Both the position numbers and the translations under genes were made by a program. A stretch of DNA of 64,000 bases from positions 5,146,001-5,210,000 of the forward strand of contig OX485809.1 of NCBI GenBank assembly GCA_950295325.1, read 5' to 3'. Shown here one piece after another: positions 3,178 to 30,573 of the stretch. This stretch comes from Polytrichum commune (taxonomy: Eukaryota; Streptophyta; Polytrichopsida; Polytrichales; Polytrichaceae). A model generated the notes under the pieces. The model saw only the letters and a list, made by a program, of their open reading frames with translations, ran no database searches and was not told the DNA's origin. How positions within the stretch are numbered: position 1 is the first letter of the stretch; every line of letters starts with the position of its first letter.

Positions 3178-4462
3178 GCACAAGGCAGAGAGCAAGGAAC
3201 CAAAAAAGCAGGAAAGTTGACATTCTATTAGTTTGAGAAATCAAGAACCTCACCTCTCTCAAAACCCTACCTTTCACATACTCAAACTTACACAAATAGG
3301 AGGCTTCGGATCCGAGGCCTCTTCCTCTAGCTGGTTCTTATGCACTACAGAAAACAAGACAAGACCGAGAGCAATTGATGTGCACATAACATTTTGATTT
3401 TTCAAGCACAAACCTACCCACAAATAAGAGGCCTCGGATCCGAGGCCTCTTCCTATGGCTCCCACTTATGCACTACACAATAGAAGAAATGGCCGATAGC
3501 AAGGAATCAAGAAAGCAAGAAAGTTGACATTCCATTAGTTTGAGAAATCAAGAACCTCGCCTCTCTCAAAACCCTACCTCTCACATACTCAAACTTACAC
3601 AAATATGAGGCCTCGGATCCGAGGCCTCTTCCCCTAGCTGCTTCTTATGCACTACACAAAACAAGACAAGGCCGAGAGCAATTGATGTGCACATAACATT
3701 TTGATTTTTCAAGCACAAACCTACCCACAAATAAGAGGCCTCGGATCCGAGGCCTCTTCCTATGGCTCCCACTTATGCACTACACAATAGAAGAAATGGC
3801 CGATAGCAAGGAATCAAGAAAGCAAGAAAGTTGACATTCCATTAGTTTGAGAAATCAAGAACCTCGCCTCTCTCAAAACCCTACCTCTCACATACTCAAA
3901 CTTACACAAACAAGAGGCCTCGGATCCGAGGCCTCTTCACAAACCTCCTACTCATGTAGTACCCAAAACAAGAAGGCCGAGAGTAATCTTACACGAACAT
4001 AACATTTTGATTTTTCTTAAATAATATTGACTCAAACATGAGGCCTCGGATCCGAGGCCTCTTTCCAAAACACATACTTATTCACTACCCAAAACAAGAA
4101 GGCCAAGAGCATTCAAAAATGAACATGAGATTTTCATTTTTCAAGCACATACCTTGACACAAAAATGAGGCCTCGGATCCGAGGCCTCTTCACAAAGTAC
4201 CTACTTATGCACTACCCAAAACAAGAAGGCCAAGAGCATTCAAAAATGAACATAAGATTTTCATTTTTCAAGCACATACCTTGACACAAAAATGAGGCCT
4301 CGGATCCGAGGCCTCTTCCGAATGCCCCTCCTTATGAAATACATACTACAGAAAATGGCCGAGAGAATTCAAAAATGAACCTAACATTTTGATTTTTCAA
4401 GCACAAACCTTGACACAAAAAAGAGGCCTCGGATCCGAGGCCTCTTCCCAAAGCTCCTACTT

Positions 4463-5230
4463 ATGCACTTAACAAAACACATTTCCCCCCCCCCCGCAGC
4501 TTCAGACCTCCATATCTTCCACGTGTGGTCTCCAAATCTAACAATCAACCACTCTATCGTCATCTACGTGAAATGTAGATGCCGATGGACACCTCACTTG
4601 CCCCATTTGGGCAAAAATCAAGGAAGTTATGCCTGTTTAAACATTCGCAGTCCCGGGAGCCACTCCCAGGAGACTGCTGATCGAGGGCACTAAAAGGAGG
4701 CCTCGGATCCGAGGCCTCATTTTCAAACTAGTGTACATACTCAAAAACAAGCAAAGTGCCTCATTCATACAAGCTATACGTTGAATCAAAAAACCTCAAG
4801 TGGCCTCGGCTGAGAGGCCTCGGATCCGAGGGCTCACACACAAAGTAATTTACGTACTCCAAACCAACCATAGTGCCTCATCCGTACACTAGTTTTGGAA
4901 CACATAAAAGAGGCCTCGGATCCGAGGCCTCTTCTCCTAGCTTCTACATATGCACTTAACAAAACACATTTCCCCCCCCCGGCAGCTTCAGACCTCCATA
5001 TCTTCCACGTGTGGTCTCCGAATCTAACAATCAACCACTCTATCGTCATCTACGTGAAATGTAGATGCCGATGGACACCTCACTTGCCCCATTTGGGCAA
5101 AAATCAAGGAAGTTATGCCTGTTTGAACATTCGGAGTCCCGGGAGCCACTCCCTGGGGACTGCTGATCGAGGGCACTAAAAGGAGGCCTCGGATCCGAGG
5201 CCTCATTTTCAAACTAGTTTACATACTCAA
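4463..5230. repeat. Direct duplication of a ~270-bp segment inside the palindrome array
   Basis: The segment from about 4463 to 4740 (C-run, then CAGCTTCAGACCTCC and on through the next palindrome) recurs at about 4953-5230 with few differences. Each copy starts beside a C10-C12 homopolymer and ends with AAACTAGTTTACATACTC-like sequence. It is a local segmental duplication within the type A array. Confidence 0.8.
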
Positions 5231-7651
5231 AAACAAGCAAAGTGCCTCATTCATACAAGCTATACGTTGAATCAAAAAACCTCAAGTGGCCTCGGCCGAG
5301 AGGCCTCGGATCCGAGGCCTTACACACAAACTAGTTTACATACTCAAAACCAACCAAAGTGCCTCTTCCGTACACTTGTTTTGGAACACATAAGAGAGGC
5401 CTCGGATCCGAGGCCTCATTCACAAACTAGTTTACATACTCAAAACAAACCAAAGTGCCTCATCCGTACACATGTTTTGGAACACATAAAAGAGGCCTCG
5501 GATCCGAGGCCTCATTCACAAACTAGTTTACATCCTCAAAAACAAGCAAAGTGCCTCATTCATACAAGTTATACTTTGAATCAAAAAACCTCAAGTGGCC
5601 TCGGCCGAGAGGCCTTGGATCCGAGGCCTTACACACAAACTAGTTTACATACTCAAAACCAACCAAAGTGCCTCTTCCGTACACTTGTTTTGGAACACAT
5701 AAAAGAGGCCTCGGATCCGAGGCCTCATTCACAAACTAGTTTACATACTCAAAACCAACCAAAGTGCCTCTTCTCTACACTTGTTTTGGAACACATAAAA
5801 GAGGCCTCGGATCCGAGGCCTCATTCACAAACTAGTTTACATCCTCAAAAACAAGCAAAGTGCCTCATTCATACAAGTTATACTTTGAATCAAAAAACCT
5901 CAAGTGGCCTCGGCCGAGAGGCCTCGGATCCGAGGCCTCACACACAAACTAGTTTACATACTCAGAACCAACCAAAGTGCCTCATAAAGACATGCCTAAC
6001 CAAGTTACTTGTTACATGGCCCACGGGCGTTCGCCCGTGGGGCACAAGGCAGAGAGCAAGGAATCAAAAATGGAACAAAGTTGACATTCCATTAGTTTGA
6101 GAAATCAAGAACCTCGCCTCTCTCAAAACCCTACCTCTCACATACTCAAACTTACACAAATATGAGGCCTCGGATCCGAGGCCTCTTGCCCTAGCTCGTT
6201 CTTGTGCACTACACAAAACAAGACAAGGCCGAGAGCAATTGATGTGCACATAACATTTTGATTTTTCAAGCACAAACCTACCCACAAATAAGAGGCCTCG
6301 GATCCGAGGCCTCTTCCTATGGCTCCCACTTATGCACTACACAATAGAAGAAATGGCCGAGAGCAAGGAATCAAGAAAGCAAGAAAGTTGACATTCCATT
6401 AGTTTGAGAAATCAAGAACCTCACCTCTCTCAAAACCCTACCTCTCACATACTCAAACTTACACAAATAAGAGGCCTCGGATCCGAGGCCTCTTGCCCTA
6501 GCTCGTTCTTGTGCACTACACAAAACAAGACAAGGCCGAGAGCAATTGATGTGCACATAACATTTTGATTTTTCAAGCACAAACCTACCCACAAATAAGA
6601 GGCCTCGGATCCGAGGCCTCTTCCTATGGCTCCCACTTATGCACTACACAATAGAAGAAATGGCCGAGAGCAAGGAATCAAGAAAGCAAGAAAGTTGACA
6701 TTCCATTAGTTTGAGAAATCAAGAACCTCACCTCTCTCAAAACCCTACCTCTCACATACTCAAACTTACACAAATAAGAGGCCTCGGATCCGAGGCCTCT
6801 TCCCCTAGCTCCTTCTTATGCACTACACAAAACAAGACAAGGGCGAGAGCAATTGATGTGCACATAACATTTTGATTTTTCAAGCACAAACCTACCCACA
6901 AATAAGAGGCCTCGGATCCGAGGCCTCTTCCTATGGCTCCCACTTATGCACTACACAATAGAAGAAATGGCCGAGAGCAAGGAATCAAGAAAGCAAGAAA
7001 GTTGACATTCCATTAGTTTGAGAAATCAAGAACCTCACCTCTCTCAAAACCCTACCTCTCACATACTCAAACTTACACAAATAAGAGGCCTCGGATCCGA
7101 GGCCTCTTCCCCTAGCTCCTTCTTATGCACTACACAAAACAAGACAAGGGCGAGAGCAATTGATGTGCACATAACATTTTGATTTTTCAAGCACAAACCT
7201 ACCCACAAATAAGAGGCCTCGGATCCGAGGCCTCTTCCTATGGCTCCCACTTATGCACTACACAATAGAAGAAATGGCCGAGAGCAAGGAATCAAGAAAG
7301 CAAGAAAGTTGACATTCTATTAGGTTGAGAAATCAAGAACCTCACCTCCCTCAAAACCCTACCTCTCACATACTCAAACTTACACAAATATGAGGCCTCG
7401 GATCCGAGGCCTCTTGCCCTAGCTCCTTCTTATGCACTACACAAAACGAGACAAGGCCGAGAGCAACATGATGTGCACATAACCTTTTGATTTTTCAAGC
7501 ACAAACATACCTTTCCTAACATGTTCCTAAACCCAAATCAAGACAAGGCCGAAAGCAAGTCAAGCTGATATTCCAAATACTATGAGAAATCAAGGTGATA
7601 GAAAGCAAAAACGTTGGCGAACATAGCTTGGCCGAGATCCCGACACCTTAC

Positions 7652-8101: not shown

Positions 8102-8255
8102 CTATATTTAAGATAAAACAATGTTTATAACAATGATGACAAACCATAATATCTAAAAGAAAAGTTGTTTCACAGTTGAATATGTTCTACCATTTTCATT
8201 ATGTGCTCAAACAACTGAATATATGGAGAACCCGAAGAATACGTACGACACTTGT

Positions 8256-8283
8256 AACACTATATTCGTTAATTCGAGACTTT
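8256..8283. repeat. Left terminal inverted repeat of element B
   Basis: 28-bp terminus starting AACACTATATTCG; pairs with 25555-25582 with mismatches only at positions 17 and 20. The first 11 bases are identical to the element C terminus at 49544. From here to the transposase-like gene's stop at 8913 there is ~630 bp of AT-rich subterminal DNA with GGGAAC and CACATCCGTAAA motifs (8704-8716 and 8760-8772) and no gene. Confidence 0.85.
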
Positions 8284-8912
8284 GGAAAGTCTCAAAATAA
8301 ATTGGACCCGTAGTTTCGGATGCGAATATTGTGAACGTAGGGAACATGGGGAACAATGGCAACATAATGTTCGAAAGATCCATATGTGATGAATATATAT
8401 GTTTCTAAATATAGTAATTATTTGGGGGATAATCAAAACTACGCCAACACAATATTCCAATGTCACAAATTCACAATTATTTTGTATTTTTGATTTTGTA
8501 TTGAACAAAATTAATGAATCTATAAATAGCCATCTGATTTTATATCTAGGGACTCTTGGATGCGTATCCCAAACATAACATCTTAGCCAATTGTGGGTGA
8601 ATTGAACGGCACATCCCAAACGCAACAATATTAAAATAATTTGATAGTGTGTATAAGAAATTGCAAATTAGCATCTGCAATATAATTATATAGTTTGGAC
8701 TCCACATCCGTAAACACAAACATATAAAAAACATTTGATAGCGCATGTGAAGTTGGATTCCACATCCGTAAATCAATACAATCATGATATATAATTGTAA
8801 TCTATAAAATTGCTATAAAATGTGTCTAATATAGTATTCGACCCCAATGTCATATATTTCATGAAAAACCAAGACACATTTCAAATAATTGTGGTCCAAC
8901 CCTACGTCAATA

Positions 8913-11900
8913 TCATTCTCCATCTTCATCTTCAGCTTCATTTCCATTCTCGACATCGTTTTCTGCAGCAGCAATACGTGCCAAGTTGTCTTTGGCAAAA
9001 TCTATATGTTTTTGGGGGATGGTCATTGTCTCTGATTTGGAACCTTTGCGTGGTTTCCAAGCACAAAGTATGGTATCTGTGTTTATCCATATTGGTTCGT
9101 ATGCTGAGTCCATTGTCCATTTGAAACCTTTTTTGGTGTCCCACCCTAAATATGTGCGGAGCACATTTTGATCTTTGGTGCTGGGACGGCAATATTCCAC
9201 CTCAATTTGATGAAAATTTGGGCTAGTTGGAACAAAATTTGGTGATGACAATGCTTTTACCAACCAAATCGGTTTAGGGTGCTCCTCATCTCCAGGACGT
9301 ACGAGGATCATATACCCTTCGTAGCAATCAACAGCCACACGAAATGATGGAGCCGGACGATTACGAGCTGGGCCAACATAATGGTCGTCCGCTGCGAACT
9401 CTTCACGGATGTCCCCATTGTTGAAGAACATGGCCTCAGATTCCACGATTGTCACTCGGCTTTGTGGCCAAAAACCTTGTGTCAAACATGAATGTGTTTC
9501 GACATCGGGTGCTAGCAATGCTGAGCGAATGCGATCCCAGTACGTAATCAATGGTTCGTGGGTATCCCGAACACGCCTTGTGATGTCTTCCTCGCACAAT
9601 TCTTTCCAATATTGGATGAATCCGGATATACCTTTGATGATTTCTGGTCCATTCCTCATGGGGTTGGGTTTGCAAGGCTTCGGCTCCCCATCAGGTAGCA
9701 TACATTTGCCTTCTTCGTTTTGGCGCCATACGAGTATCCCTTCCTCTGGACCCCAATCCGGGGAAGTGCACAAAACTTTGAATTGCATGGCCGGCAAACC
9801 ATCATCACGCATATAGAATCGGAATTGTTGAGCCTTGGTATGGCCCACTAAACGGTCACCTCCCTTAAGAATGAATGGTTCGATAAACGCTTTGAAATCG
9901 GGCACTTCTTCAATCAAATGCGGGATGACTGGCACATTATCCAAATCCATGTATGATTTCATGAGAAGAGGAATCGTCGGAAAATCCTCCTCGTGCAACT
10001 TCATACTCCAACGTCCAAATGAAGCGTCAATGTCATCATGCGTGTGGCCAACCATCAAAAAAGACACAAACACTTCTTTGAAAATGCCCTTGGCTACGAG
10101 CAATGACCAAAAACAAAACACGTATCGACATTTGTTGTCTTTGGCACAATTGTCCAGTTGCACATGTAGAGTTGGAGGCAAAGGTTTAGCAAGAACGGTT
10201 TGTTCAAGCGGTTCTTGCAGTGACGATAGACATACTTCTTTCCCCTCTAGCACAGCCTCATAAATCGGTGTTGTTCCACATCCAACAAAAAGAGCGCGAG
10301 AGGATGATGTTGGCGGACTCTCAAGATCTCGTAGAAGTTTTGCAAAAGACCCTACGGTATGATTGGCGTCGCCTGGATAGAAATCCAAGCCATAATGTGC
10401 ATACTTGACGTCCACATGGCCATGTGCGATCATACCTGAATTAAGACATACAAATGAGAAGTACATTCCAATATCATTTATAATAAGGAAATTCAATTTT
10501 TCCGCAAGCAGGCCAAGAAAATGAACAAACACTTACGGATGTACATCCGTAACTCTTAACGATGAGTATGTGGGTTCGCAAAAAAAATGTGAAAACCAAC
10601 GAACCTGTGACAGATATTGGAAGCTTGAAATATCCATCTGTAGCCTTTATTTTCCGTGCATAACAAGGGCACGCAGTCTTCGCATGGTCCATTTTGTCAT
10701 GAATGATTGTCAAAACCTCATTCGGCCTCATTATCGATAATGCGCGATTCTTGTAGTAGTCTTGACGGTGTGCCTCTTGGTTGTTGACATGCTCAATGTA
10801 TTTCCGTTGATGTCTATTGTGCGACTCAGTCCCTATGGGATGTGCATCTCGAAGGCCCTTGTATTTTTCACAAGCAGAACACCTGGCAAACTTATCCCCA
10901 GGCCTCTTCGTAATGTACTCTGCAAATTGTTGATTCTTGATCACACTCAATTTTGACAACGAAATCGGCCCACATCCAGCCTTTTCGCCAACCTCATTAA
11001 CATCCATAAGTATGTTCTTCCATTTTGTCCCTGTAGGCAAAACCATCTGGACAACCTTTTCCCCCGACGGCAGAGTCCGTGTTTTGTGTGGCATCGCATC
11101 TGCTAATGGCATAATGATGGTTGATAGTGTTGCAGCTGCTTGGAGTGTTGCCTCCCTGGGCTTCTTTGTACCAGAGTTGCCATGGAACCGAGAACGCCGT
11201 CCTTGCAGCGAGTAGTTCCGGAACCTATAAAAATCTGCCTTTGAAACTGCATGTATAATGTACCATGCCGTGCAGCATACCTCTATATTTTCCAAGGTCA
11301 CAACCTTACGACCTTCGGCATCAAAGTGCATGTTGCGATGGACTTCAAGTTTCTTTGCAGATCGCATCCGAAAGTCCGCAAGCCACATCTCTTGTCTCAA
11401 AGATTTGATTTTGTCACGGGGAAATAGTTGGCAACACATTTTTGCACAACAATCCTTTGTTGCTACGGACCTAATAGATGTGTCTCCCAATGTTAGATCT
11501 CGACGACGTTGCGTGGGTTCACGGGGCACGCGAACGGAATCATATTTACGCCGACCTTGTCTAGGACGCATTGTGGCGAACAAAGTCTTTTGTATTTCCT
11601 CAAAACGACGTGCATGATTCCACAAGCTGACACCATCGTGAAGAACACTTCGCAACGGCCATCGACGAAGAGAGAATCTCCAACCAGGAGGTACTTCCAA
11701 TGGATGTAAGGAGTTCAAAATGCACACCCCAACATCTTCCTCCCCAAGGGGATTTGCATCAATACAGTCCATAGGATTTGAGTTCCTACAAACACCATTG
11801 GCCACGGGGACGCCGTATCCATTGACTATGACAACATCAAGATCAATCCATTGTTCCTGCGAATAACCCTCACATGTTGGTATGAAATCATCCTCTGCAT

Positions 11901-12009
11901 TGGCGACACCAATTGTAGTTTCATGTTCCATAACACCTTCAAATTCGCTAGCATAGCTTGACGCTTCCGAAGAGAACTCGAATGCATTATCTCGGACGTT
12001 GGAATCCAT
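8913..12009 (-). CDS. DDE-type transposase-like protein of element B
   Basis: Two exons, 12009-10605 and 10435-8913, join in phase (ACAG + GTATG) to give about 975 aa; the start could also be 20 codons upstream at 12069. It is clearly homologous to the gene at 31754-34865 over its whole length. Conserved acidic blocks look like an RNase H-fold DDE core: HDKMDH (~438-441), VQLDNCAKDNK (~563) and VGHTHDDIDASFGRWS (~602-605). A Cys-rich segment (KDCCAKMCC, and later CSACEKYK) may bind zinc. The HTHDDID block resembles plant proteins often left as uncharacterised transposase-like families. Role inferred: mobilising element B by acting on its inverted repeats. The reading frame is intact. Its only intron (10604-10436) holds a palindrome, and more lie upstream at 12.1-13.2 kb. 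Confidence 0.75.
10533..10552. repeat. Type B palindrome variant in the transposase-like gene intron
   Basis: A perfect 20-bp palindrome, TTACGGATGT followed by its complement, lies in the intron 10604-10436. Compared with the standard arm TTACGGACGC it differs at two arm positions, and both partner bases on the other arm are changed too, so symmetry is preserved. Confidence 0.8.
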
Positions 12010-12150
12010 GGCCACTACAAGTGACCCACATGAAGAGTATGTCAAAATATCCCATTCAATAAATGTCATGGATAGTCCTAACGCTTATTGTCAATGAAAC
12101 ACAATGTCAACAATAGTGGATTTCATGGCCTGGAAACAAAGACACATTGG

Positions 12151-13195
12151 TATACGAACGCGCGTACGTATATCTCCATGTAACAACATTATCAGTGCAA
12201 GCACGCGCATACATATGTCTTTATTTATTCATAGTCGGCGGAAAGGTCCAGACAACAAAAACATGACAGTTTTATGGGCGCGCACCCGTAAATCTCTTCG
12301 TGGTCAAAGAGGTCAATATCATGCGCAAATGTTTTCGCAAACTATACAACATAGGTATACGGACGTGCGTCCGCAAACATCCGAATGTCAAAAGTCAGTG
12401 TTGTGCAAGACACACAGAGGTTTAGGAAACCAAGATGTCCAGGTGTCAGGTTCCTACTGTGTATTATGAATGTCAAAATATTATACTATGACACATAGGG
12501 TGATGTAAGCTTAGGGTTTAGGGATCTTATACCTCCATTGACCGTACAGTCTCAATGTAATATTCTACATGGCACATAGTGAAAAGTATGGAACCAAAGG
12601 TTTGCAGGTTTACGGATGCGCGTCCGTAAACCTCTCTGTACCTCATTACTAGCACAAATAGGTTTAGGTTACTGGACGTGAGTCAAAAAAATTTCATGAC
12701 AATACAGTCTCGTTGGTATACTATACATGGCAAGTGGTCATGATGTCAGCTCAGGTGCAATACCGAACAATGGAACAAAAAGGTGCAAAAGTTTACAGAC
12801 GCGCGTCCGTAAACCTCAATGTAGATGAAATAGGTCAAGTATAATTCTCACTGCAATAGATATCCAATCAAGCAAGAGGTTAAAGGTTTACGGACGCGCG
12901 TCCATAAACCTTAATGTACATGAAATAGCTGAAGTATAATTCTCACAACAATAGATATCCAATCAAGCAAGAGGTTTAAGGTTTACGGACGCGCGTCCGT
13001 AAACCTCAATGTAAATGAAATAACTCAAGTATAATTCTCACAGAAATACATATCCAATCAAGCAAGAGGTTTAAGGTTTACGGACGCGCGTCCGTAAACC
13101 TCAATGTACATGAAATAGCTCAAGTGCAATTCTCACAGAAATAGATATCCAACCAAGCAAGAGGTTTAAGGTTTACGGACGCACGTCCGTAAACC
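12151..13195. repeat. Type B palindrome cluster upstream of the transposase-like gene
   Basis: Ten copies of the TTTACGGACGC-arm palindrome, some imperfect, lie at about 12151, 12271, 12355, 12607, 12791, 12886, 12980, 13075 and 13170, plus flanking fragments. The last five are in a 95-bp tandem repeat whose unit contains GATATCCAATCAAGCAAGAGG. They sit in the 5' flank of the minus-strand gene and so could be promoter or protein-binding sites; that role is inference. Confidence 0.9.
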
Positions 13196-16100
13196 TCCGT
13201 GATTTGCGGCGCCATAATAGGACCATTTCACCAGGAACGATACTTGCCATAAACAAAAATCAATCACTATAAGGATCCAGACAGTGCAATCCACATAAAA
13301 TTGGCTCCACTAATGGGTTTATGGCTTGGAATTTAGTGTTTAGGGTATAAAAGGTCCATTGCAATAGGATCTGTACCTGCACGAAATAAACATCCAGAAC
13401 ACTACAAGGGTCCAAGCAGCGCAACCCACATCTGAGATGCAAAAAGAGTCCCTTGGTGGAGGGGTGTCCCCTTAAGTACTGATCGTTTCCCTTGGATCCG
13501 TTTTCCAACATAGGATACTAGCCACCATCTACGTCCTATAAATAAAAACCTAACATTACTACATTCCGTGTGCCAGCCTTACAATGGAATGTGTATTCAT
13601 AGTGGACAACATGCATAGACGATGAGTCCACATAATGACAAAGCAAAAGGCATCTACGTATTTATGGTGGACAACAAAGAAAATAGGCTAATAATATATG
13701 AGCATTGAACATTGTTGAGGGGTGGTTTATAATATTGAAGTACCTAATATTGAGAGGTCATTGTAGAACTAGGAGACAGAAAATTATAGTGTCGTGTGAA
13801 ACATCAACCACAACAACAACAATAGTACATGGAGTATAAAAATACGTGTCATTCAAAATTAAACTAGCATCTATTTTATTGTTTTGCATACGATGTAATG
13901 ATATTCACTCCAATATCATGTTATCTCCTCTCATCTAGCATTTAAACTAGTAATTACATTTGCCACCACCCTACCATCCAACCCGTTTAATTTACCCACT
14001 TTTACACACCTATACATAATTATACTAATACGTACACAAACTTTGAGCGCCTAGATGCCATGAAAATAGCACATCTATTGTCATAGGCACTATGGGTTGC
14101 TTTAAAATCAATATTCTCAATTTCCTCTCTTAACTTTAGGGCCCCCTTCAATACATCAACATTTATTTCAAAAAAAATAATACTAGCATTCTTAATGTAC
14201 TATACGTGAGACAAAAAACAATTTTTAGTACCCCATGTACATTATCTACAATATTGACTCAAACAATAGCAGTTGTTGTTCTAAGTAACATTATGAGCCC
14301 AACAAAGCATAATGGAGAGAAGGGGAGGGTAGGGTATCCAAATATTATAAAGGCAAGCAATTTTAAGTTGGTGACAGAAGGGGGATACTCTCATTAGTTC
14401 ATACGTGGTACCCTAAATCCTAAACCCTAAACCCTAAACCCTAAACCCTAAACACTATACCCTATACCCTATACCCTATACCCTATAACCGCCCACCCCT
14501 GAACAAACACAACGACATACGGTACGCATGGTTAACTGAATAACTCCCAATACATGTGTAGCCTTAAGTGGAAGTAATTCAAAACTATATGACTACCTTT
14601 AAATTTTGTAAAATAAAACCATAAACATTTCAAATGTGAAGCAAATTTAGGGGTAACCTTACCTTTCATTTTTTAAAATCTTTCTTTGGCTTTAAACCAT
14701 TTGCTTTAAACATATACTTTTGATGAAAGGTTTTGAAGATCGTATATTGGTATTCTATAATCGAGTCCTAAACACAACTCACCACCGAAAGAAAACTCCA
14801 AATATAAACAAGTTTGCTACTACTTATAAGCGATAATACAAGCTGAGGCCTATGTGTGGAAGGATTGGATGGATCCGAAAGGTTGTTTAATGTACAAGAG
14901 GGATGTACATTCAACACATACCCATGCATTTTGTTTTAATACAAGCTTAGACCTATGTGTGGAGGGATTGAATTAATCCGTAATGTTGTTTAAGGTATTA
15001 CAAGCATATGAATTCTCCCCATATCTCGATGTTTCGGTTTTGTTAATTGCGTTTCACAACTTATTGCGATAATTGAGGGATTCACAAGTATTTCTTGGCA
15101 AAGTTTCATGAGAATTTGTGGCCAATTGGTATATTGCCCCAATTGCATTTGAATCCCACCTTTGAGAAGAAAAAGAATTCTTATACTGAAGTTAATCAAC
15201 AAGACATCCTTTTATTGAATATTATTACTATTCTCGAAATATAGAGTCCCCTCCATAGCTCGGGGGGTGCACTGTACTAAACATGTACGAGTTATACGTG
15301 AGTGCACAGGAGGGGTATTGATTTGGACCTTGCCGTATTGCATATACATATGGTATACATGTTATAATTTATAGTTACGTACATATATGGAAGGCCTTTA
15401 AAAAGTATAGAATAATTGTACTTGTATGGTATTGTTACTATACTATATATCATAAGTGTTCATATTGGATAAGTTTTCATAAGGTTTGGTTTGTTGGGAG
15501 AGTTTATAGGATGCGGAGGAAGTTTGGTAATCGTTGGGTGGAGTATAGGGATCCATTTGACTTGATGGACCGTCCATCAAACGTGGAGATTGGTTTATGT
15601 TGGTATCAAAAGGGGCTAACAACAAGTGGACATATGATCTTATTGATCATTCCATGGTAGACTTCGAGACAATAATTGCATTTGTATACTTATGTTAATG
15701 ACTCTCGGGGGGGGGGGGGGGGGCAGTCATTGGTTGGAGTAGCAATATACGTGCAAACAAATGATAGGGTATTTTAAAAACATGGGGGCAAAAAATTATA
15801 AATGGACTTAAGAGTAATATAGGGTATCAAAAATGGCACTGGACATCTTTAAAGTAGTATAGGGTATGGAATAATTGGTAATTTGGAATTATAAGTAATG
15901 CAAGCCATTTTTCTATTAACCCAAAGTAGAAATTTATATAATGATAGCATGTGAAAAAAAAAAAAAATTGAAAGTAATACCCCCCTATATCCTTATTTTT
16001 TTAACACACTGCCCCCCCGAGTAATGACTAATATATATGAATGGATGTTTTTTTGTGTATACATATTGTTGCTTGTATATTTATTGTTGCAATTGTATGT

Positions 16101-16560
16101 GTATTACTTCATTTCACAAAAAATCACTTGTATATATTAGGGGGTTTTTAGAGTATGCAGTGAACGCACGTGATTCTAGGTTTTAATGAAAGGTGCTCCC
16201 CCACTCTCCATAGAGGCCACACTAGAAATTGTAGTTAGTTTCTCTCATTGTTTGGAGTTCCAAAATGATATTATTATTATTATTGATGTCATTTAATTGT
16301 TGACAATGACATAATAATTTACTCAACCTCACACCCTAATATAATTTCCTAAAATAATGAATACTTTCTAGAGCTCGTATGAATATTTCACTCATTATCA
16401 AAAGTGAAGAGAAGAGGCAACGAGATGGCTCATTTTATATTTAGAGTGACATTTAGTGTGACTTTTAACTTGCCTTAGCATAAACATAAGATGTTATTAT
16501 GACATAATATGATAATAAAATCACCAAACTAAGTATAAATTAAACCCCTATTTCAATACC
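13196..16560. other. Internal spacer of element B without a convincing gene
   Basis: This 3.4-kb stretch separates the two divergent genes. It holds an interstitial telomere-like tract (14409-14488), a G17 run near 15706-15723, an A12 run near 15956 and short AT-rich repeats (ATAGGGTAT-like strings near 15790-15870). The small open frames are short, overlap one another and lack splice context. It could be older DNA caught inside the element. Confidence 0.6.
14409..14488. repeat. Interstitial telomere-type repeat
   Basis: About six units of CCCTAAA or a one-base variant are followed by five CCCTATA units. The CCCTAAA heptamer is the common plant telomere repeat. Ordinary sequence continues on both sides, so this is an internal tract, not a chromosome end. 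Confidence 0.85.
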
Positions 16561-16599
16561 AAATATAGACCAGTAGGGTGATGCCACGTAAGGGTATAG

Positions 16600-17913
16600 G
16601 CCGGCGATTGGGCGCGACGTTTGGGGTAGGGACACGTGGAGGCACGCCATTGTTTTAGGGTTCCAAGTACTCCAGCACCCTTTCGCCCTCGCTCTTCGTG
16701 CTTTTCCTTCCTTCTCTATCATCTCTTCCTTCCGTTCCTTCTACTGTTGCTCTTGCTTCTCTTGCTTTAGGGTTATAGGGTTTCAAAGTACACCAGCTCC
16801 CTTTTGCCCTCCTCTTCGTGCTTTTGCTTCCTTCTCTTGCAACTCTTGTTTATCTTGTTTATCTTGTTTCTCTTGCTCATCTGCTCTTGCTTCTCTTGCT
16901 CATTTGCTCATCTTCTCTTGCTCATCTGCTCTTGCTCATCTTCTCTTGCTCATCTACTCTTCTTCTCTTGCTCATCTTCTCTTGCTCAACTTCTCATCTT
17001 CTCTTGCTCATCTGCTCATCTTCTTTTGCTTCTTTTGCTTCTCTTCACTTGTTTCTCTTGCTTCTTACCCTTATCTTCACTTTCTTCTCTCTCTTCTCTT
17101 GCTTCCCTTGCTGGTCTTGCTTCTCTTTCCTCACAATGCAAAACTCATTCTTATTGGTCAATTGCTGACGCGCGTCAGAGCTAGAGTAAGTTCTCCTTGT
17201 TTGCTGCTCATTTGCTTATTAGCTCATTAGCTCATTAGTAAGTTTTGCTTGCTGCTTGCTTGCTTGCTGCTCATTAGATCATTAGGATGCTCATTGTTGC
17301 TTGCTACTGCTCATTAGGTTGTTTTCAGTTGTTGATCTCAGTTGTTGCAAGGGTAATTAGTGTTTCAGATGTTGCTCATTAGGGTTTCAGTTGTAGCTTC
17401 ACCATGTAGTTCATTATATTTTTTGCATACAAATCAATAGTTTCCTTTCACTTGTGTTGCATGAATCTGATTTATGAGCAACTTTTTTGAGTAGTTCTCA
17501 ATGTTGAATCATGCATGTGCACATTGAATTACTAGAGGTTTCTGACCTCAATTTTATTGTTCATTTGCAGTTGGTATTAGCTGCAGCAGGAGCAGCTAGT
17601 TGTGGTTTAGGAGCAAACACTCTAGAAAGGTAAGTTTTTTAGAACATTGCAATTGCATTTTGTATGATTGCAATTTTGGGTTGTTGTGGTTTAGGGCTTA
17701 AGGTTAGCATGACAGAATGTGAGATTCCAGTTTCAAGGAATTCTGAATTTGTTTAGTACTTTGTCTATGGCTACATTCTAAGAATCATTTAGTTATGGAC
17801 ATGTCAGTGTTCTGAAAGTGCCTTATGTTGTCAATCTGCAGTGCAGTGTTTGCTATTGCAGTGAAGTAAAATTGCATTCTTATTTGGAGGGCAAAACCAT
17901 ATTGGACGACAAG
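16600..17913 (+). promoter_or_regulatory. Promoter and leader exons of the element B long gene
   Basis: A G-box-like ACGTGG motif (near 16633) precedes a pyrimidine-rich tract (about 16680-17130) built of CTCTTGCTCAT-type units. Candidate leader exons follow: one ending at donor GTAAGT (17186), one at 17571-17629 (acceptor TTTGCAG, donor GTAAGT) and one from 17842 or 17862 to 17913 (donor GTAAAG). The next acceptor, TTTGCAG at 18781, opens the main coding exon. A 14-bp palindrome, CTGACGC plus complement (17165-17178), shares the GACGCGCGTC core of the type B repeats. Whether any leader exon is translated is unclear. Leucine/serine-rich frames in the pyrimidine tract are artefacts of composition. 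Confidence 0.4.
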
Positions 17914-17988
17914 GTAAAGTCCCGAAAAACACGGAGCATTAATGAAAACATTGGAATACGCAAACATTACAATAGCCTTTATAATCCT

Positions 17989-18728
17989 CAAAGTTTACGG
18001 ACGCGCGTCCGTAAACTTTGTGGATCTTTGTGTAGGTGAGAGACAAGCCTCTCAAACAACATATTACGCAAACGAAGCCAAATATTGTAATATTAGGCAT
18101 ATTAAAATAGCCTTTATAATACTCAAAGTTTACGGACGCGCGTCCGTAAACTTTGTGGATCTTTGTGTAGGTGAGAAACAAGACTCTCAAACCGCATATT
18201 ACGCAAACGAAGCCAAATATTGTAATATTAGGCATATTAAAATAACCTTTATAATACTCAAAGTTTACGGACGCGCGTCCGTAAACTTTGTGGATCTTTG
18301 GGTAGGTGAGAGACAAGCCTCTCAAACAATATATTACGCAAACGAAGCCAAATATTGTAATATTAGGCATATTAAAATAGCCTTTATAATACTCAAAGTT
18401 TACGGACGCGCGTCCGTAAACTTTGTGGATCTTTGTGTAGGTGAGAAACAAGACTCTCAAAAATATATGTAGGTGAGAAACAAGACTCTCAAAAAATGTA
18501 GGTGTGAAACAAGACTCTCAAAAAAATATTAACCGTAACTTGAATACATTGATATTTACCACCATACTATCTTTGCGAAGTTTACGGACGCGCGTCCGTA
18601 ACTTATAGAGATATTTGAGTATATGATATACGCGTTATGCGTATTTGGAAGAAATGTATCTTTTCATTTGGATCCAAAAATATAATTGAGACAATTTGGA
18701 AAACTTTACGAACGCGCGTTCGTAAAGT
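17989..18728. repeat. Type B palindromes in the leader intron of the long gene
   Basis: Four 32-bp perfect palindromes (arm CAAAGTTTACGGACGC) lie at 17989-18020, 18123-18154, 18259-18290 and 18393-18424 in a ~135-bp tandem unit; a shorter one is at 18578-18604. The sixth, at 18703-18728, has arm ACTTTACGAACGC: the G-to-A change on one arm is matched by C-to-T on the other. A ~27-bp tandem TAGGTGAGAAACAAGACTCT repeat lies at 18465-18525. The whole block lies between donor 17914 and acceptor 18781. Confidence 0.95.
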
Positions 18729-18781
18729 ATGATCTATATCTTTTGCCAAGAATTCTAACTTATCTATCTTATCATTTGCAG

Positions 18782-21700
18782 ATGGCATCTAAAAAGAGAC
18801 ATGCAATTGAGATGTTCGCAGAAGCTCTCATTCCTCCGCTACCAGAAGCCATCAAAGACATAAGTCCCAACGACCATTACAAGCCACAAGATGAAATTGT
18901 GGATAATTGGACAGTATTGGTAGAAAAGGACGAGAAAGAAATATTTGTGCTTAGATTTGCATATCAAATGAAGACGGACATAGATGAAGCTGAGAAGTGG
19001 ATAAAGCTTAAATCGTGGACAGTAGAGTGTGCAGTGGCACAAGGGGATTATGTAGTAATAGACCTTGAGAAGAAAGAAGATCGGGTCACTTTCATTTTGC
19101 ACGAATCCTACCACCCCTTCAACAAAAATGAGTGTGAGAATGCTAGTACAGATGCGGCTTGCTTCAATCTCCAGACGGAGTTCCAAGACTATGCATGCAA
19201 TGCACCTTGGACGGGTAAGCGGCTTGGACGACTCTTGAACAATGTAACAAGAGTAAATGGAGCCTTGCTAGAGGCCAGAAAGGGGAAAGATAAGAAAAAA
19301 CAAGTCGTTCCTGAACGACCTAAGCGTGTGCCTAAACCAGTGCCGGAATCCTCAAGGCCCTCGCAGAGTGGTGCATCAAGAGGGAGCAGACAGGCGAGTA
19401 AACGCTCTCACTCGCAGATGGACTCTGGACTAACAGAGGGTCCGGATGTCAGCTCTACACTGACTGTCGCTCCACTCCTCAAAAAGGGTCAACGCCCTGA
19501 CGCCGAACTCTCAACAAAAATATTCCAAGAGTTCGATGAGAAGACGAAGGGATGCTGGCCCCTTGGCAGGTATTTTACTTTCGAAGTAGACGTCTACAAA
19601 TGCCACAAGGACACCGAAAGTATGAATACCAGAGCAAAAGAAGAAAGCGGTGTATGGTGGCAAATGAACAACATCATGAACAACCCCAAGTTTGACAGGC
19701 AAACCATTTGTGTGACACCAAAGGATCCTATCGTTGAAGTCAACGAAAAAAATTGGCCGATTCTCAAGAATGGAGAGTTCTACATTGTCGACGGCCAACA
19801 TAGTGTAATGGCTGCAAAAGCTCTCCTTGAAGACGACGAGTGGAAAAGCCCATTAAAGGAGACAATCCGATATTGGAAGGCATTCGTCGTGCATTCCAAG
19901 GACTCGAACCAACTCATAGCAATATCTGCCTTCATGAACCAGGGGAATAAAGTGAGGCAGTTCGAGGCTTCATGGGCAGCCAACATCGTGGCTGGGAGGA
20001 CCTTGTGGGTGGAGCACGAATGTCCCCCAAAAGAAAGACATAATGCTGTCGTGAAGAACCCAAAATGGCAAGTATGTTACTCAAATAGATTTACGGACGT
20101 GCGTCCGTAAATGTGGCCCTTCTCCTCCCACTGCTTCAAATATTTGAATTTAATTTGTACTGAATTCAATGTTCTGATTTCTTGCAATTCGCGCCTCTTG
20201 CAGACATTCAGCAATGCCATATTGACAAAGTTCTCGAGTATAGACATGAAGACAAGCGGCATGAAAACAGTGCATGAATTAAAAGGCGAACTCAAGCTCA
20301 TCACTGCAACAGAAGAGACGTGGTCAATATGGTTGCGACTTTTCGATGCCCACAACAACGGCGACCTTGTCAATCCAGATACGGAGAACACCTACAAGAG
20401 CGACTCAAAAGTTAAGGTACCACCAATCCTGCGAGAGTTCTTTCGTCCCCTCCAAGGATTGATGGACTCGGAGCTGTACAGGGCAGCAGAACACATTCTT
20501 CTAGAAACTCCTAGAAGAACTCTGCCCTATCCCAAAATCTTTCTGAAGCGGCCGAAGCACATGAAGCCATCCACGTACCACATTAAGGAATGGTGCGATT
20601 ACAGAAAGAAGAAGACCATGGCTGTAAGGGAGATTAGCAAATTGCTACCCACCCACAACCTCATTAATAGTGATGGTAAGATCGTGTGGGAGAATTGGAG
20701 GAAGCTGAAGGGTGAATACCACATCAATGGCGTCTCAATGCGAGCTTTGATAAGAGGGGCATCATCCTTCCTTGCCCAACGATCCAGAAGGAACGAAAAG
20801 AAGGGATCCATCGACGAGAGGGAGGCAGGGTTGTATGTTCACTTTCTCGATAGGAAAAAGAACGCGAAATTTGGAGGGTTTGCAAGATTCTGCACGGTCG
20901 CAAAGGGCATGAAGTTCGGCGCATGGGACACCCATGCTTCAAGAGCCTCTGTGAGAGATGACCCCAGGGGTTGCCCTTTCGCCATTTTTGATTTTCGTGC
21001 AATTCCCGGAGCATGGAAGCAAGACGTTGCGGGAGCACCCTTCTACGAGCCCTTCTTAAAAGCCTTCAAGAGCTATCGCTCGCCTGCCCTCTTCGAGCCT
21101 CATGTGTGGTTATGGATTGTAGAGCAAGAGAGGTCCACATCCATTGTCCATCTGTACACATCAACGATGGACCTCGAATACGATATGTACCACAGCACCT
21201 ACATCCCAGCGAAGACAGAAGGGATCACTTTCATTCAAGAGGCAAGGGGGGTGAAGCAAGTGGGAGCTGTGCAGCTTTATTTCTTAACACGCAAGTCTTC
21301 CCCAACTGGGCGATTGCCCATTAAACCACACGAGGTGTTCAGGAAAGTCTATTCGTTGCCGCCACCACATCCCAAGGAGCTTGTTGAGGAGACAATGCAT
21401 GCAATCTATCCGGCGTTCGAGCTCCGGATGGACTTTTATATAGGGGTCTTGAAGGCTTTAACTGTCATGAGTGAGACAGTTTACAACGTCTTCGGAGGCA
21501 CGAAGTTTATGTATGCAGCACTGGTGAGTATTTGTTTGTCTTTCAACCCACCTATCTTTTGCATAGTTATTTTACGGACGCGCGTCCGTAAAAACCCAGT
21601 ATCAGGTGCATGTGAATTTTACGACCGTGCGTCCGTAAAATTGTCCAACTTTTGAGTGGTGGTTTTACGGACGCGCGTCCGTATAACGTGTTGACATCTA

Positions 21701-24283
21701 GCCTCATTTATATGCAATCACCACTATTGTTCTTATCTAATTTTCTTGTTATGGTCCAGATGCTTGGCTTGCAGGTGAATTCTTTTGTGCAAGATTCCGA
21801 CTACGATGACGCCCATACTCACAGGGTAATGGCCTCCAAAATGGATATCCAGGACATCATGGACGTCCTTACACCCCATCTTGTTGTGCCTCTTTCTTCT
21901 AGAGAAGAGGCAATGCCCGGAATGGAGACAGACCCTGAAGAGGACCGAGATCCCAGTTCCCCAAGAGCGCAACCCTCCACACAGGAGCCTTTACACGGCC
22001 TTGTTCGCGACCCAATTAATCCAAGTGCTTTCCTGCTGGGAACAGACGACACGGATGCGCAGGAGGCACGCGTGAACTTCACTCCGATAAGGGTCCCTCA
22101 TACCCCTGTTCTCTCACCTTTTGGGACTCCCACCTCTCGAGTTGGATTTCCCTCAACTGCGGGTCCATCTCGTGCTCCAGGAGTTATGGCCGAGAAGGAT
22201 GTGGACCTTGCGGCAGAAGGCGGATGCACCGCTTCATCTGGAGGGGGATCTCAACATTCAGATCTACCCCCTATGGAGGGGAGGGATGTGCTGGAGTTGA
22301 TATTGAGGCCTGATATCTCTCTATATCGTGAGAGTCGACGAAAGAGGAACAAGACGCCATACAACGAATACCCTGAAGGCGCGGTCTTGGAGCTCTCCGA
22401 TGAAGACGAGGATGAGATTAGGATTCACAATGCCATCTCTGCCTTGCCTACGGAACCTGGCAAGGTGAAGAAAGAGCCGATGTCAGTGTCCGAATTGGAC
22501 GAGAAGATGGAGAGGCGAATGAAGGAAGAGCTTGACCAACGGCTTCGAGAAGCTAACGAGGAGCACGCCAAAAAGATGGCCGCCATCCAAGCTGAGATGG
22601 AGCAAGCTAGGTTGGAGTCTGCTCGAAGGCACGCCGATCTCATGGCCCAAAATCAACAGTTCTTGGCCCAAAGTCAACAATTTATGAGCCTGATGCAGAG
22701 CTTGCAGGCAAGACCCCCTGTAGTCTATACAGCTCCCGATGCCGTCATGTCTATGCCCCCCACTCTCATGCGGCCTCCGTCTAGTAGCCATGCGGTGTAT
22801 ATACCCGAGCATGCTTATCCAGCCCCCGCGTTGATTGTCCCGCCCTCTCCCCTTGTTGTCGCCACTCCAGAGGAGCCCTCCTCTCATCCTACAGGAGTGG
22901 AGGAGATACCGGCACGTGACATGGCGGGTGCCGCCGAGACAGATGTCAATGAAGGCAATGCCCCCATCGGCGATGAAGATGTACATATGCGGGGCAGCCA
23001 AGACTCCACAGATGAGGATCAGCCTTACGTGGATACTCAAGGGTCGCAAGCGGCTGGAGACACCTTGTTGGTGGTCGAAGATCTGGACAATTTTGCGGAC
23101 GCGCGTCCGGATCCTGTGCCCATGACGGGGCCAGGTGAGGGAGGCACTGCTGGCGCGGACCTCGCCCTTGAAGAGGTAATCAACCTTTGAGCATGCCTCC
23201 CACGTTACGGACGCGCGTCCAAAACTTCCTTGTCTGCCTCCTTCGTGGCGTGTGTATATTATCGAGTTCAATCCTCGACTTCGCCCGGCGGGTGGATACA
23301 ATTTTGTTAGCATAGATTCCATTAACTTCAACAGATATTTTTTGCGACAATGTATATTATTCACCAAATGTATATCACCAATTACATTAATACCAATTTT
23401 TCAACTGGATGGTTCGGATTATTTTTGGCCTTATAATTTGTGTTGAGTTTATCCATGCTTGTCAATTGGTTTTCTTGAGTAGTACCATTTACCTAGATAG
23501 AATGTTCCATCACAGGGTCCGTCGGAGATATGTCGCAACCCCGCGGGAAAACCAAGCGCGCCCATGATGAAACCGTTCATAATATTTGACCTCAATGGGG
23601 TGCTTTGTCAATCCAAACATATCTCGAATAGTGCGTCCAAGGGGCCCTTCCGTAGTCCACAAGACATGGATTACGGCGGACATTTCGATACTCTCATAAA
23701 TAAGAAGGTTGTACGTGCCCGCCCCGGTTTGAGGAGCTTCCTTCGTGAGGTCCTTGGCTTCGCCCATGTCATCATCTGGAGCTCTATGCTCATGGACAAC
23801 ACGAAGGCCATCGTCGGTTTCCTTTTCCGAGAACTCGCAATGCCATGCTTGCTTCTCGGTCAAGAACACTGCGATGACCTCTATGACCGTAGTGGCAATA
23901 TTGTACCCAAGGTTGGAGGAGGTCGTGGGCCTCAATTCTTAAAGGTCCTGAGGAAGAACCTCTGGGTGGGCGTCCCTATGTTGGAGGGGGTTCCCCACGG
24001 TTGTTGGCCCACCCCGGATAACACACTCCTCATTGACGACAGCCCGGCAAAGAGTATTCTCAATCCCCCGGGCAATTGCATATTCCCGGATCCTTGGGAA
24101 AGCGATAGAAATGACAACTTTCTAGAGAGTGAACTAGGACCCTACATTAGGAGGCTTGCCTATCACCCCGGAAGTGTCCCGGATTTTGTGCTCTCCAACC
24201 CAATTGGCAATAGGCCTCTAGGCCCACAAGATGAGGAATTTAGGAGATTGTACGGCTACGCTAGACTCAATAAATTAATATGA
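18782..24283 (+). CDS. Element B long gene: ParB-like, methylase-like and HAD domains
   Basis: Exons 18782-20071, 20204-21523, 21760-23175 and 23516-24283 are all phase 0 and give 1597 aa; if the weak last donor (GAG|GTAATC) is not used, the third exon stops at 23190 (1346 aa). Residues ~337-410 hold YIVDGQHSVMAAKALL, like the ParB-superfamily DGxHR loop but with Ser for Arg. Residues 431-870 end in VYNVFGGTKFMYAAL, reminiscent of the DNA-methylase AdoMet motif (DxFxGxG...A), with Asn for Asp and no clear (D/N/S)PP(Y/F/W). The third exon has a Lys/Glu-rich coiled coil (EKMERRMKEELDQRLREAN) and Pro-rich flanks. The last exon is an FCP1-like HAD domain: FDLNGVL, IIWSS and LLIDDSPAK; the usual second Asp of motif I is Asn. 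The ATG follows an acceptor directly. The function of the whole is unknown; DNA binding or marking is inferred. Confidence 0.7.
20089..20112. repeat. Type B palindrome in intron 1 of the long gene
   Basis: A 24-bp near-perfect palindrome (ATTTACGGACGT / GCGTCCGTAAAT) lies 17 bp after the donor GTATGTTACTC. The element C gene has its own palindrome in the same intron after the same donor sequence. Confidence 0.9.
21570..21684. repeat. Three type B palindromes in intron 2 of the long gene
   Basis: Copies at 21570-21593 (perfect), 21615-21642 (imperfect centre, arms extended with AATTTTACG) and 21663-21684 lie inside the 236-bp intron 21524-21759, so they make up much of it. Two further partial copies lie at 23092-23112, inside coding exon 3 where they encode ADARPD, and at 23204-23222, just after the exon. 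Confidence 0.9.
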
Positions 24284-24375
24284 AAACTTTGATGATTTTG
24301 GGTTTGTACTTGGACTCTCCATGTAAATATCTAACATTTCTCCCCTTATCTTTGTAATGTATTTTTGTGTCTTAG

Positions 24376-25272
24376 TTGCCTCACCAAGCACCCAAAAGTG
24401 TCGTCAATGGCATGTCTGCATCTCAGGCAGACACCGGCTCCCTTTCCCTTGGTATGAGCGACGTTGCAATGCCTTCACTATTCCAATATTCGGCCGTCGA
24501 TGCTGCCTCTGCTGTTGATTACTCCAAAGACTCCGGGTTTGAAGACGGAGTCGTGGATAGCCCTCCTGCAAAGGTTGCAAAACTCAATTACTCTCCAAGT
24601 CCATCTCCATCTCCCCTCCGCAGTGAGAAGCACGTCCGTAACCCACGGTCGACCAGACGCCTTTGCATGGATGAACCCCAAATTGATGTCCCGGCGTTTG
24701 CGAACGTCCCTCTCGGGCTTGTATCTACACCCGTCGATGTCCCAAAAGCTCTAACCAGCGCCCCAAAGGCGAAGGTGCCCAACTATTGGCATTCTCAAGT
24801 TTTTCCTTGATGATTTCCGTGTATTAGTGCATTTCAACTTCTTGGGTTTTTCGGACTTCCATCCGTAACTTGTAACCACTTATACTAACCCACTTCATTA
24901 TATATATTTATGGTCATTGTTCAGACCCCAATGTACACGAATGTGGGCCGGGCATCATCGACTTCGTCATTGGATAGGCGAACACTGAAGACAGCTTCTT
25001 GCGAGTCTGATCGTTGTTTGGCCCTACGGAAAAGTGCAAGACGTTCGGTTTCCCAAACGCATTCGTATTCCACTTATTCGGAAGGGGGTCGGCAAATATG
25101 GGCAAATGGCGCATATTCGGGGTCAACAAATAAACAAGGTTACAGCCGCGGACCCGAGATCTTTAGAGCCATGGAGGCCATGAAAGCAAAGGAACGTGAA
25201 ACGGCCGTAAATGCTAATAATAGTATTGCAAAAGCAAAAGTAGTGAGTCGTAATCATGATCCGAACGTATAG
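24376..25272 (+). CDS. Small third gene of element B
   Basis: Two exons, about 24376-24798 and 24925-25272, give ~256 aa in phase. The first opens after acceptor GTCTTAG (TTG CCT CAC), so a 5' exon with the start may lie upstream or the ATG near 24412 is used; the donor of exon 1 (GTTTTT) is poor. The protein is Ser/Pro-rich, with KVAKLNYSPSPSPSPLRSEK in exon 1 and SRGPEIFRAMEAMKAKERE in exon 2. The element C counterpart at 50778-49979 opens the same way after its HAD exon and has SRGVRLLRAGLA at the corresponding place. No domain is recognised. It could also be an alternative 3' part of the long gene. The 3' flank to the inverted repeat is 280 bp of AT-rich DNA. Confidence 0.4.
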
Positions 25273-25554
25273 GCTATATTAACATACATGTAGTTGTGGA
25301 ATTATGTTTCTAGGACTTTCGCCTAATATTGGATATTCCACTTGCATTTTGTACTTCAACCCCTATTCAATAAATATGATATTGATTTTCCATATGCAAA
25401 TGTTTTCATATATCCCATTTTCTTATTGTTAATGTGTAGTTCCATGCATTTGAGTCTCTTATTTGTTTCCAAAATTGGGAACATAGCATATTTTTAGTGT
25501 TTTCATTCCTATAAATGTGAAAGCCACGTCCTTAAATAGTCTCAAAATTAACAA

Positions 25555-25582
25555 AAAGTCTCCAAATAACGAATATAGTGTT
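25555..25582. repeat. Right terminal inverted repeat of element B
   Basis: Inverse of 8256-8283 with two mismatches, followed by TTGT (25583-25586), the second copy of the target duplication. A GGGAAC motif lies inside it at about 25478. Confidence 0.85.
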
Positions 25583-25931
25583 TTGTAGAGTTTGTCTCTT
25601 CGCGTGAGTCCTCTTGGATGCTGTCGTTTCCCAACTCCTCCACTTCTGCCATTGGTTGCGCTTTACTTCCGTCCGCCTCTTCTACAATCGGTGATAAATG
25701 AAAAGGCCGAATCCCACAGTCTAACCTCCACGAAGGTTTCCGCAGGTCCTTTATGCTTTGGCTCAAATCCTCGGGCGTCCCACGGCCCTCAATTGGCGCT
25801 TTCCTTGCCTGTGACTTTTGTGTCCTCACTGTCTTTCTCTTCTTATCAGTGTAATGTGTAGACGATCGCCTCCTCTTCTTTTTCTTAGATGGTTCCGTTG
25901 TCGGAGGTTGTGAATTGCCTATTTCCTTCAT
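25583..25931 (-). CDS. 5' exon of element A long gene, cut by element B
   Basis: An open frame starts at ATG 25931 (MKEIGNSQPPTTEPSK) and runs to the edge of element B. It has a strong basic cluster (KKKKRRRSS, DKKRK), a likely nuclear localisation signal, then an acidic C-terminal part (DSIQEDSREETNST). Without element B and one TTGT copy, the frame would continue 5 bp past the TTGT (8251-8247) and meet a donor GTACGT at 8246 in phase 0; the acidic exon at 8101 opens in phase 0. In the present DNA the frame enters the inverted repeat and stops at 25548. So B interrupted this exon. The full 5' end may lie further upstream. Confidence 0.5.
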
Positions 25932-26250
25932 GTGTTCAACCCTCCCGCAATTCAGACCTATTCGCTCTATTTCCTTTCCACAACCTCACCACATCAAACT
26001 CACACATTGGAAAGAAAGTGAGCAATCGCATTCTTCTCAGTATATAATTGCAATACCTCCCGATGGGAGGCGCGCTTTACTATCTGACAACCATCTTTGT
26101 AATTAGGGGTATCTTTTTTTAGGATGCCTGACAGTTTTGTCTCCTTCCTGATATTCATGCGTATTTGTTTATAACTTCATCGTCATCACCATTCTCCTTC
26201 TCTATGCATCTTTGCATCTTTGTTCCTTCACGTTTGCTTTCTCTGCCTTC

Positions 26251-29923: not shown

Positions 29924-30084
29924 GATTTATCTCAGCCTAGCAGTACTTTGGGCTATGATATATGTGTCTATTTCTGGACCTCTTGTGAAGCAATAATTGA
30001 TTGATATAATAAAGGTATAATCTCAATGATTATTTTTATTTGCTTCAAAATTTTGTATTACAATGCTTCCTATGTCTATCAACT

Positions 30085-30552: not shown

Positions 30553-30573
30553 TGTGTGCAACTGTATATACAA

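Follow-up and report, generated by a model that had tools for sequence, protein, structure and literature searches.

The 64,000-nucleotide stretch of Polytrichum commune that we analysed (assembly GCA_950295325.1, contig OX485809.1, positions 5,146,001 to 5,210,000 of the forward strand; hereafter the window, whose numbering we use throughout) holds a complete giant DNA transposon of 17,327 bp at 8256..25582, which we call E1, together with parts of two further element families, E0 and E2. E1 carries a transposase-like gene on the minus strand and, on the plus strand, a long accessory gene whose first exon bears a ParB-like domain. Its introns and other noncoding gaps contain many copies of a 22-bp palindrome, and related elements carry palindromes of different sequence. 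It is the relation between the accessory gene and these palindromes that concerns us here.

An original prediction, made from the letters of the window alone, took E1 to be a complete transposon with 28-bp inverted termini and a flanking TTGT, and the genome bears this out. The terminal inverted repeats lie at 8256..8283 (plus strand) and 25555..25582 (minus strand) and agree at 26 of 28 positions, the opening 11 bases of the left one, AACACTATATT, being common to E1, E2 and another family, F4; the target-site duplication TTGT stands at 8252..8255 and 25583..25586, both on the plus strand. We searched the assembly (408 Mb in 64 contigs) scoring only the best-ranking candidates, so that copy counts from these searches are lower bounds. 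The left end has at least 40 full-length matches at 99-100% and one partial match at 83% (best 40 of 812 candidates), and the right end at least 40 matches at 97-100% (best 40 of 683). A same-strand right-end partner was found for 28 of 40 left ends, and 23 of these 28 pairs are spaced by 17.19-17.35 kb, close to the 17 kb at which the prediction proposed to look for them. The 4-bp duplications and empty sites that it proposed to look for were found too: among the 20 pairs whose flanks were examined, 19 carry identical 4-mers, varied in sequence from pair to pair, while the sole pair with unmatched 4-mers is a 33-kb pair that probably joins the ends of two different copies, and the flanks of E1 joined to each other (150 + 150 nt with a single TTGT) are contiguous at 98-100% in at least 40 places (best 40 of 79 candidates). 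E1 is a complete, recently mobile transposon inserted within another repeat. The GGGAAC motif, which had been put forward as subterminal, occurs six times on both strands of the whole element against 5.9 expected, a chance-level count, and we do not retain it as a defining feature of E1. The plant telomere-like repeat ACCCTAA is present inside the element about 11 times, at 14410-14490.

The transposase-like gene (8913..12084, minus strand, two open reading frames, ORFs) matches the Pfam family DUF7869 (PF25273, E 5.6e-41), as the prediction of such a gene would have it. No other Pfam family rises above the cut-off in the two ORFs, and there is no MULE transposase call. The gene is probably interrupted by an intron near 10.53 kb, since an E2-family ORF at 32832-34865 reads through the same junction. 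A search of the genome with the DUF7869 family gave at least 150 places above the cut-off (all of the best 150 of 1,491 candidates). When the transposases of E1, E2 and two further families, F3 and F4, are aligned with those of seven distant loci, some loci not covering every motif, we find D, DN and GHTHxDxD motifs, which are consistent with a transposase of the DDE/DDD type and may be catalytic.

On the plus strand, the original prediction had seen a cargo of separate genes, ParB-like, methylase-like and HAD, along with a small third gene. The ParB-like and HAD parts hold up, but separate genes give way to one spliced gene with predicted introns, whose exons most plausibly correspond to the ParB-like, middle, third and HAD parts. 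Exon 1 (18782..20071) has the ParB-like domain in its C-terminal half; exon 2 (20204..21523) encodes a conserved middle domain of unassigned fold with the motif DFRxIPG; exon 3 (21760..23175) is acidic, coiled and, judged by eye, probably disordered; and exon 4 (23516..24283) brings a HAD/NIF phosphatase-like domain (PF03031, E 4.4e-13) and a stop codon that has the same position in all four copies compared. The intervening introns, also on the plus strand, occupy 20072..20203, 21524..21759 and 23176..23515. GT-AG splice sites, including those of intron 1, lie at matching positions among E1, its relative E1b and the families F5 and F4, the intron-2 donor being found in two of these four (E1 and F5), and in E1 all four exons join in phase 0 into one frame of 1,597 amino acids (aa). 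The HAD exon of F5 has no ATG ahead of its DLNG motif and is therefore presumably spliced from upstream. The small third gene corresponds to a plus-strand region of several ORFs (24376..25272) that is conserved in two related copies, at 75-87% in E1b and 43-45% in F4.

Accessory exon 1 is under strong purifying constraint. When E1 is compared with relatives sharing 97, 88 and 78% identity, the ratio of nonsynonymous to synonymous divergence (dN/dS) is 0.04, 0.07 and 0.08, respectively, and it ranges over 0.04-0.12 among E1 subfamilies. In a comparison with the E1b copy beside the window, dN/dS is 0.08 for exon 2 (375 of 440 codons), 0.36 for exon 3 and 0.18 for exon 4. Along 20204-24283, the synonymous divergence dS of E1 from the E1b copy in L012/L009 falls from 0.97 in exon 2 through 0.41 in exon 3 to 0.18 in exon 4, which suggests recombination between E1 subfamilies.

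How firm is the assignment to ParB? The C-terminal half of exon 1, about residues 240-430 of the E1 protein, bears the motif (V/I)(D/N)GQH(S/T), and an hhalign comparison of 12 family members with 11 phage ParB-like proteins gives 96.1% with E 2.8e-9, a value that comes from a pairwise profile comparison rather than a database search and from an aligned stretch that ends just past the DGQH motif. Among the controls, 20 column shuffles stay at 0.1-0.6%, and the N-terminal half and the transposase each reach 0.1%. A PHROG ParB-like family matches the exon weakly (best E 0.019, two of six members), and a sequence search of the PDB with the exon alignment finds nothing above the cut-off (best E 0.16). 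A PDB match of the single sequence to interleukin-2 (E 0.0015) we take as chance, because it is N-terminal, lies outside the ParB-like stretch and disappears when the alignment is used. By profile similarity, then, exon 1 appears to contain a domain like the N-terminal domain of ParB, in line with what had been predicted. The methylase-like label for exon 2 finds no such backing: Pfam and PHROGs give nothing significant for a methyltransferase, hhalign gives 0.13% against six methyltransferases, and the motif [DNS]PP[YFWH] is absent from all six copies examined, four of them partial. We have dropped this reading of exon 2, which may be a degenerate methyltransferase relic.

The palindromes of E1 consist of a 10-bp half-site, two central bases and a second 10-bp half-site, with the consensus TTTACGGACG-NN-CGTCCGTAAA (an E1-type site is TTTACGGACGNNCGTCCGTAAA). 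At up to five mismatches E1 contains 23 sites, 17 of them with no more than two mismatches and nine perfect, whereas 200 base shuffles gave 0.1 sites on average and never more than 1. Nearly all lie in introns and other noncoding gaps. Nine stand upstream of the transposase gene (12151..13193, some in a 95-bp tandem array) and six upstream of the ParB-like exon (17994..18726, some in a 135-bp tandem array); three are in intron 2, and there is one each in intron 1 (a perfect copy at 20090-20111), intron 3 (diverged, at 23204, four mismatches), the predicted transposase intron (diverged, at 10532..10553, four mismatches), the small-gene region (diverged, between its ORFs, at 24848) and exon 3 (at 23092), this last being the only one of the 23 in an exon of the accessory gene. 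Genome-wide, the E1 palindrome has 1,147 exact matches against 0 for a reversed control, and 47 of the 50 places listed have, as counted by eye, an E1-type ParB-like exon no more than 10 kb away. The consensus half-site is unchanged among E1 subfamilies despite coding divergence that has reached saturation (exon dS 1.67 between E1 and the subfamily E1d). Upstream of the accessory gene, nearly all local alignments between E1 and E1d are the palindromes themselves, with one 46-bp exception; E1 can be aligned over longer stretches with its closest subfamily. In most palindrome families the two central bases are variable.

Other families carry other palindromes, again in introns and noncoding gaps, and we count at least nine half-site types in the genome. 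The F5 half-site departs from that of E1 by a single base per arm. By family, the half-sites are CTTTCACTCG in E2, GAGGCCTCGG in E0, TTTACGAACG in F5, GTTTGGGTCG in F4, CCCACGGGTG in F3, CCCACGGGCG in F6, CTTCCACTCG or CTTCCTCTCG with near variants in E2 relatives, GTTCCTCTCG in L098 and ATTCCACTCG in L103. Palindromes of this kind were present in all 14 ParB-like regions inspected (chosen from two match lists), a broken copy, L097, having one, and the F3 palindrome occurs in all 22 F3-type transposase loci (L021-L042). When families are tabulated against palindromes at up to one mismatch, the table is almost diagonal; off the diagonal, four E1-group rows have a single TTTACGAACG-type site each, the F6 group has a single F3-type site, and E0 has three sites of other types, given below. 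The scores of L098 (none) and L103 (one) are low because their own half-sites are not among the columns. Between E1 and F4, termini agree at 26 of 28 positions and transposases at 63-67%, yet the ParB-like exons agree at only 34% and the palindromes are unrelated. Palindrome type thus changes together with the accessory gene, whereas termini and transposase remain much alike. In an E2 relative, L100 (C1:57785400-57788600, reverse strand), a nearly perfect palindrome of 116 bp at 2918-3033 follows the ParB-like exon. In the literature searched, of which coverage was partial and in which palindromes were named in one search only, no report of such palindromes appears at the level of titles and the opening parts of abstracts.

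Several known systems share features with E1. Bacterial ParB-parS combines a ParB domain with palindromic sites near its gene, and so does E1 with its ParB-like domain; E1 differs in being a plant transposon, in its HAD fusion, in the 22-bp length and family specificity of its sites, and in that a Pfam scan of its ORFs gives no ParA-like partner. In the VANDAL elements of Arabidopsis, transposases are of the MULE type, and we know of no relation between their accessory protein VANC and ParB. VANC21 is nevertheless, by analogy, the nearest tested precedent for self-recognition by an element. As described (PMC5735166), VANC21 binds a 9-base motif, YAGTATTAY, found in VANDAL21 within introns and elsewhere outside coding sequence, and the protein causes DNA methylation to be lost. 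As far as that account goes, E1 resembles VANDAL in encoding an accessory protein, and the E1 group in having short, family-varying motifs, partly in tandem, in introns and noncoding DNA; unlike the VANC21 motif, which is arrayed in one orientation, the E1 sites are palindromes, a word absent from that paper (PMC5735166).

By gene content, the nearest relative of E1 is a giant Sola-1 transposon of the brown alga Ectocarpus, Sola1-1_Ec32. According to the accessible text on this 21.5-kb element (PMC12477816), its accessory protein of 1,104 aa combines a ParB-like domain with a predicted DNA methyltransferase and has been proposed to attach to the transposon that encodes it and to alter it epigenetically; palindromic binding sites are not mentioned in that text. 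On this description E1 is likewise a giant with a ParB-like accessory protein on the strand opposite the transposase, and it differs in the length of that protein (1,597 aa), in its HAD end and in the unsupported methyltransferase. The gene set, which had been thought unfamiliar among plant transposon superfamilies, thus has a precedent, although its HAD end does differ. Something similar holds for the suggestion that E1 founds a new family: a complete, multi-copy element it is, but a new superfamily is disfavoured, since 4-bp target duplications point to Sola. As far as the available account of that superfamily extends (PMC10741241), Sola elements make 4-bp target-site duplications, have terminal inverted repeats of 11-1124 bp and in some cases exceed 15 kb, and E1 shows the corresponding traits with its 4-bp duplications, 28-bp termini and 17.3-kb length, 4-bp duplications being found in E2 (ACAT) and F4 (TGGG) as well. 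Sola, whose transposases are of the DDD type, therefore seems the likeliest superfamily for E1, a placement by described traits.

What, then, are the palindromes for? A motif that is dispersed, symmetric, family-specific and constrained, and that accompanies a ParB-like gene, is best explained as a binding site for the product of that gene, and the precedents of VANC21 and the Ectocarpus Sola-1 element make anti-silencing the favoured, though putative, outcome. We infer, with rather more confidence than doubt, that the palindromes are a private address bound by the element's own accessory protein, the likely use of which would be to counter silencing. E1 is a recently active cut-and-paste transposon with two divergent transcription units, and in such a scheme the DUF7869 transposase would act on the conserved termini. 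The other unit would yield one long accessory protein made up of the ParB-like domain, the middle domain, the disordered part and the HAD/NIF domain. Dimers of this protein would bind the 22-bp palindromes, both intronic and upstream, and the ParB-like part would most likely make the contact. The address being private, the protein would load along copies of its own family and not along other DNA, and it would most likely preserve the expression of these copies in the face of host silencing, in the way that VANC protects VANDAL elements.

A number of observations weigh against this private-address picture. Pfam and NCBIfam make no ParB call for exon 1 and return nothing above the cut-off, the best Pfam score being YEATS at E 0.017. 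Of the 50 E1 palindrome places listed, three have no E1-type ParB-like exon among the matches listed. Nor is each family strictly tied to a single palindrome: one E0 copy holds two F3-type sites and one F6-type site, and the locus L099 has two half-sites, CTTCCACTCG upstream and GTTCCTCTCG in a presumed intron, possibly a switch in progress. Eight distant DUF7869 loci (L013-L020, 3.4-3.6 kb each) show no repeated palindrome, single 18-mers being found in two of them. Between E1 and F4 the middle domain (43%) and the HAD domain (39%) diverge too, so that the whole accessory gene, and not ParB alone, tracks palindrome type. Moreover, the correlation between palindrome and accessory gene is confounded by descent, HAD and ParB sharing ancestry with the whole element. 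Finally, the symmetry of the palindrome arms often continues beyond 22 bp, reaching 116 bp in L100, which points to hairpin or conversion processes besides protein binding.

Could the palindromes instead serve as operators or enhancers by which transcription or splicing of both genes is controlled, be it by the accessory protein or by a host factor, with no countering of silencing? Their clustering upstream of both genes and their presence in introns 1-3 and at the predicted transposase intron would suit this. However, a host factor is not readily compatible with different half-sites in different families, and an operator would seemingly not require as many as the 35-43 copies per array seen in E0; we regard this explanation as rather unlikely, if worth keeping in view. 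The symmetry beyond 22 bp, together with the amplification of tandem units, could also be taken to mean that the palindromes are by-products of hairpin- or conversion-driven spread with no bound protein. Set against this, the half-site is the same across E1 subfamilies with saturated dS while most of the surrounding sequence cannot be aligned, and the two central bases vary in most families, which leaves the by-product explanation quite improbable. About equally improbable is a partition-like role, in which ParB-like clamps would bring copies together or retain the element in the nucleus after excision: a ParB-like domain and parS-like palindromes invite the idea, but the element is integrated and, as mentioned, its ORFs include no ParA-like partner in the Pfam scan. 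That the sites might be bound by the transposase which the element encodes, or be transposition enhancers, subterminal repeats being common in other transposon superfamilies, we reject as very improbable, for the palindromes are interior and intronic, away from the termini, and between E1 and F4 they are entirely different while termini and transposases are alike.

The neighbouring elements in the window have palindrome arrays of their own. E0, the element into which E1 jumped, occupies 1-8251 and 25587-31057 and probably begins at -3441 in window numbering. Its array, with half-site GAGGCCTCGG, comprises 35 near-perfect copies at 1907..7415, and the copy in the window has a ParB-like ORF (938-1516) and a transposase candidate, MULE-like by eye, at 26554-29923. 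A copy of E0 free of E1 (C6:42452000-42469000) has a ParB-like ORF recognised by eye, 43 palindromes at up to two mismatches and, in the same stretch, a transposase candidate that again looks MULE-like by eye, and this stretch starts within the ORF that follows next; both copies contain a few F3-type palindromes. The E0 ParB-like ORF has no Pfam match, the first part of the E0 transposase candidate none above the Pfam cut-off, and a methyltransferase-like motif seen by eye in the ORF next to the ParB-like ORF, in the left flank of the window, has no search support. Candidate ends of E0 are suggested by a pair of perfect 29-bp inverted repeats (-3441 to -3413 and 31029-31057), but the two E0 copies have further bases in common beyond the right repeat.

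E2 is complete and runs from its left end at 49544 to the window end at 64000 and on to 78370, 28.8 kb in all, with ACAT on both sides. An array with half-site CTTTCACTCG (57622..58453) stands upstream of its ParB-like gene, which in this copy has an early stop. A second E2-family copy, of which there is only the right part, lies at 31058-35607 and has GTTCCC clustered in its subterminal part, with 11 occurrences within 35291-35538. E2-type palindromes are found on both sides of E0, and this suggests that E1 is nested in E0 and E0 in E2. Adjoining the E2-family right end, at 36114-36351, are tandem repeats of another palindrome, ATTTAGGTTGAGTCGACCTAAAT, and a 44-nt inverted repeat (86%; 47618-47661 and 60955-60998, 13.3 kb apart) straddles the left end of E2. 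An ORF at 41148-41765 resembles, by eye, a STIG1-type secreted cysteine-rich plant protein.

Within the window, both the DUF7869 elements (E1, E2) and E0 thus pair a ParB-like gene with an array of palindromes particular to it. As a more tentative proposal, which we think possible without yet leaning toward it, a ParB-like protein and its palindromic address may form a portable module of self-recognition, serving anti-silencing, in giant plant transposons, one that has branched within a single genome into many protein-site pairs and is common to unrelated transposases. For ParB-like transposon proteins our analysis provides candidate sites that are explicit, numerous and different between families, and the idea of self-binding can therefore be tested in vitro at once. 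If the proteins do bind these sites, this genome would hold at least nine half-site types with partner genes. Plant transposons would then have, in addition to VANC, another sequence-specific means of self-recognition, and its proteins might supply domains for addressing DNA.

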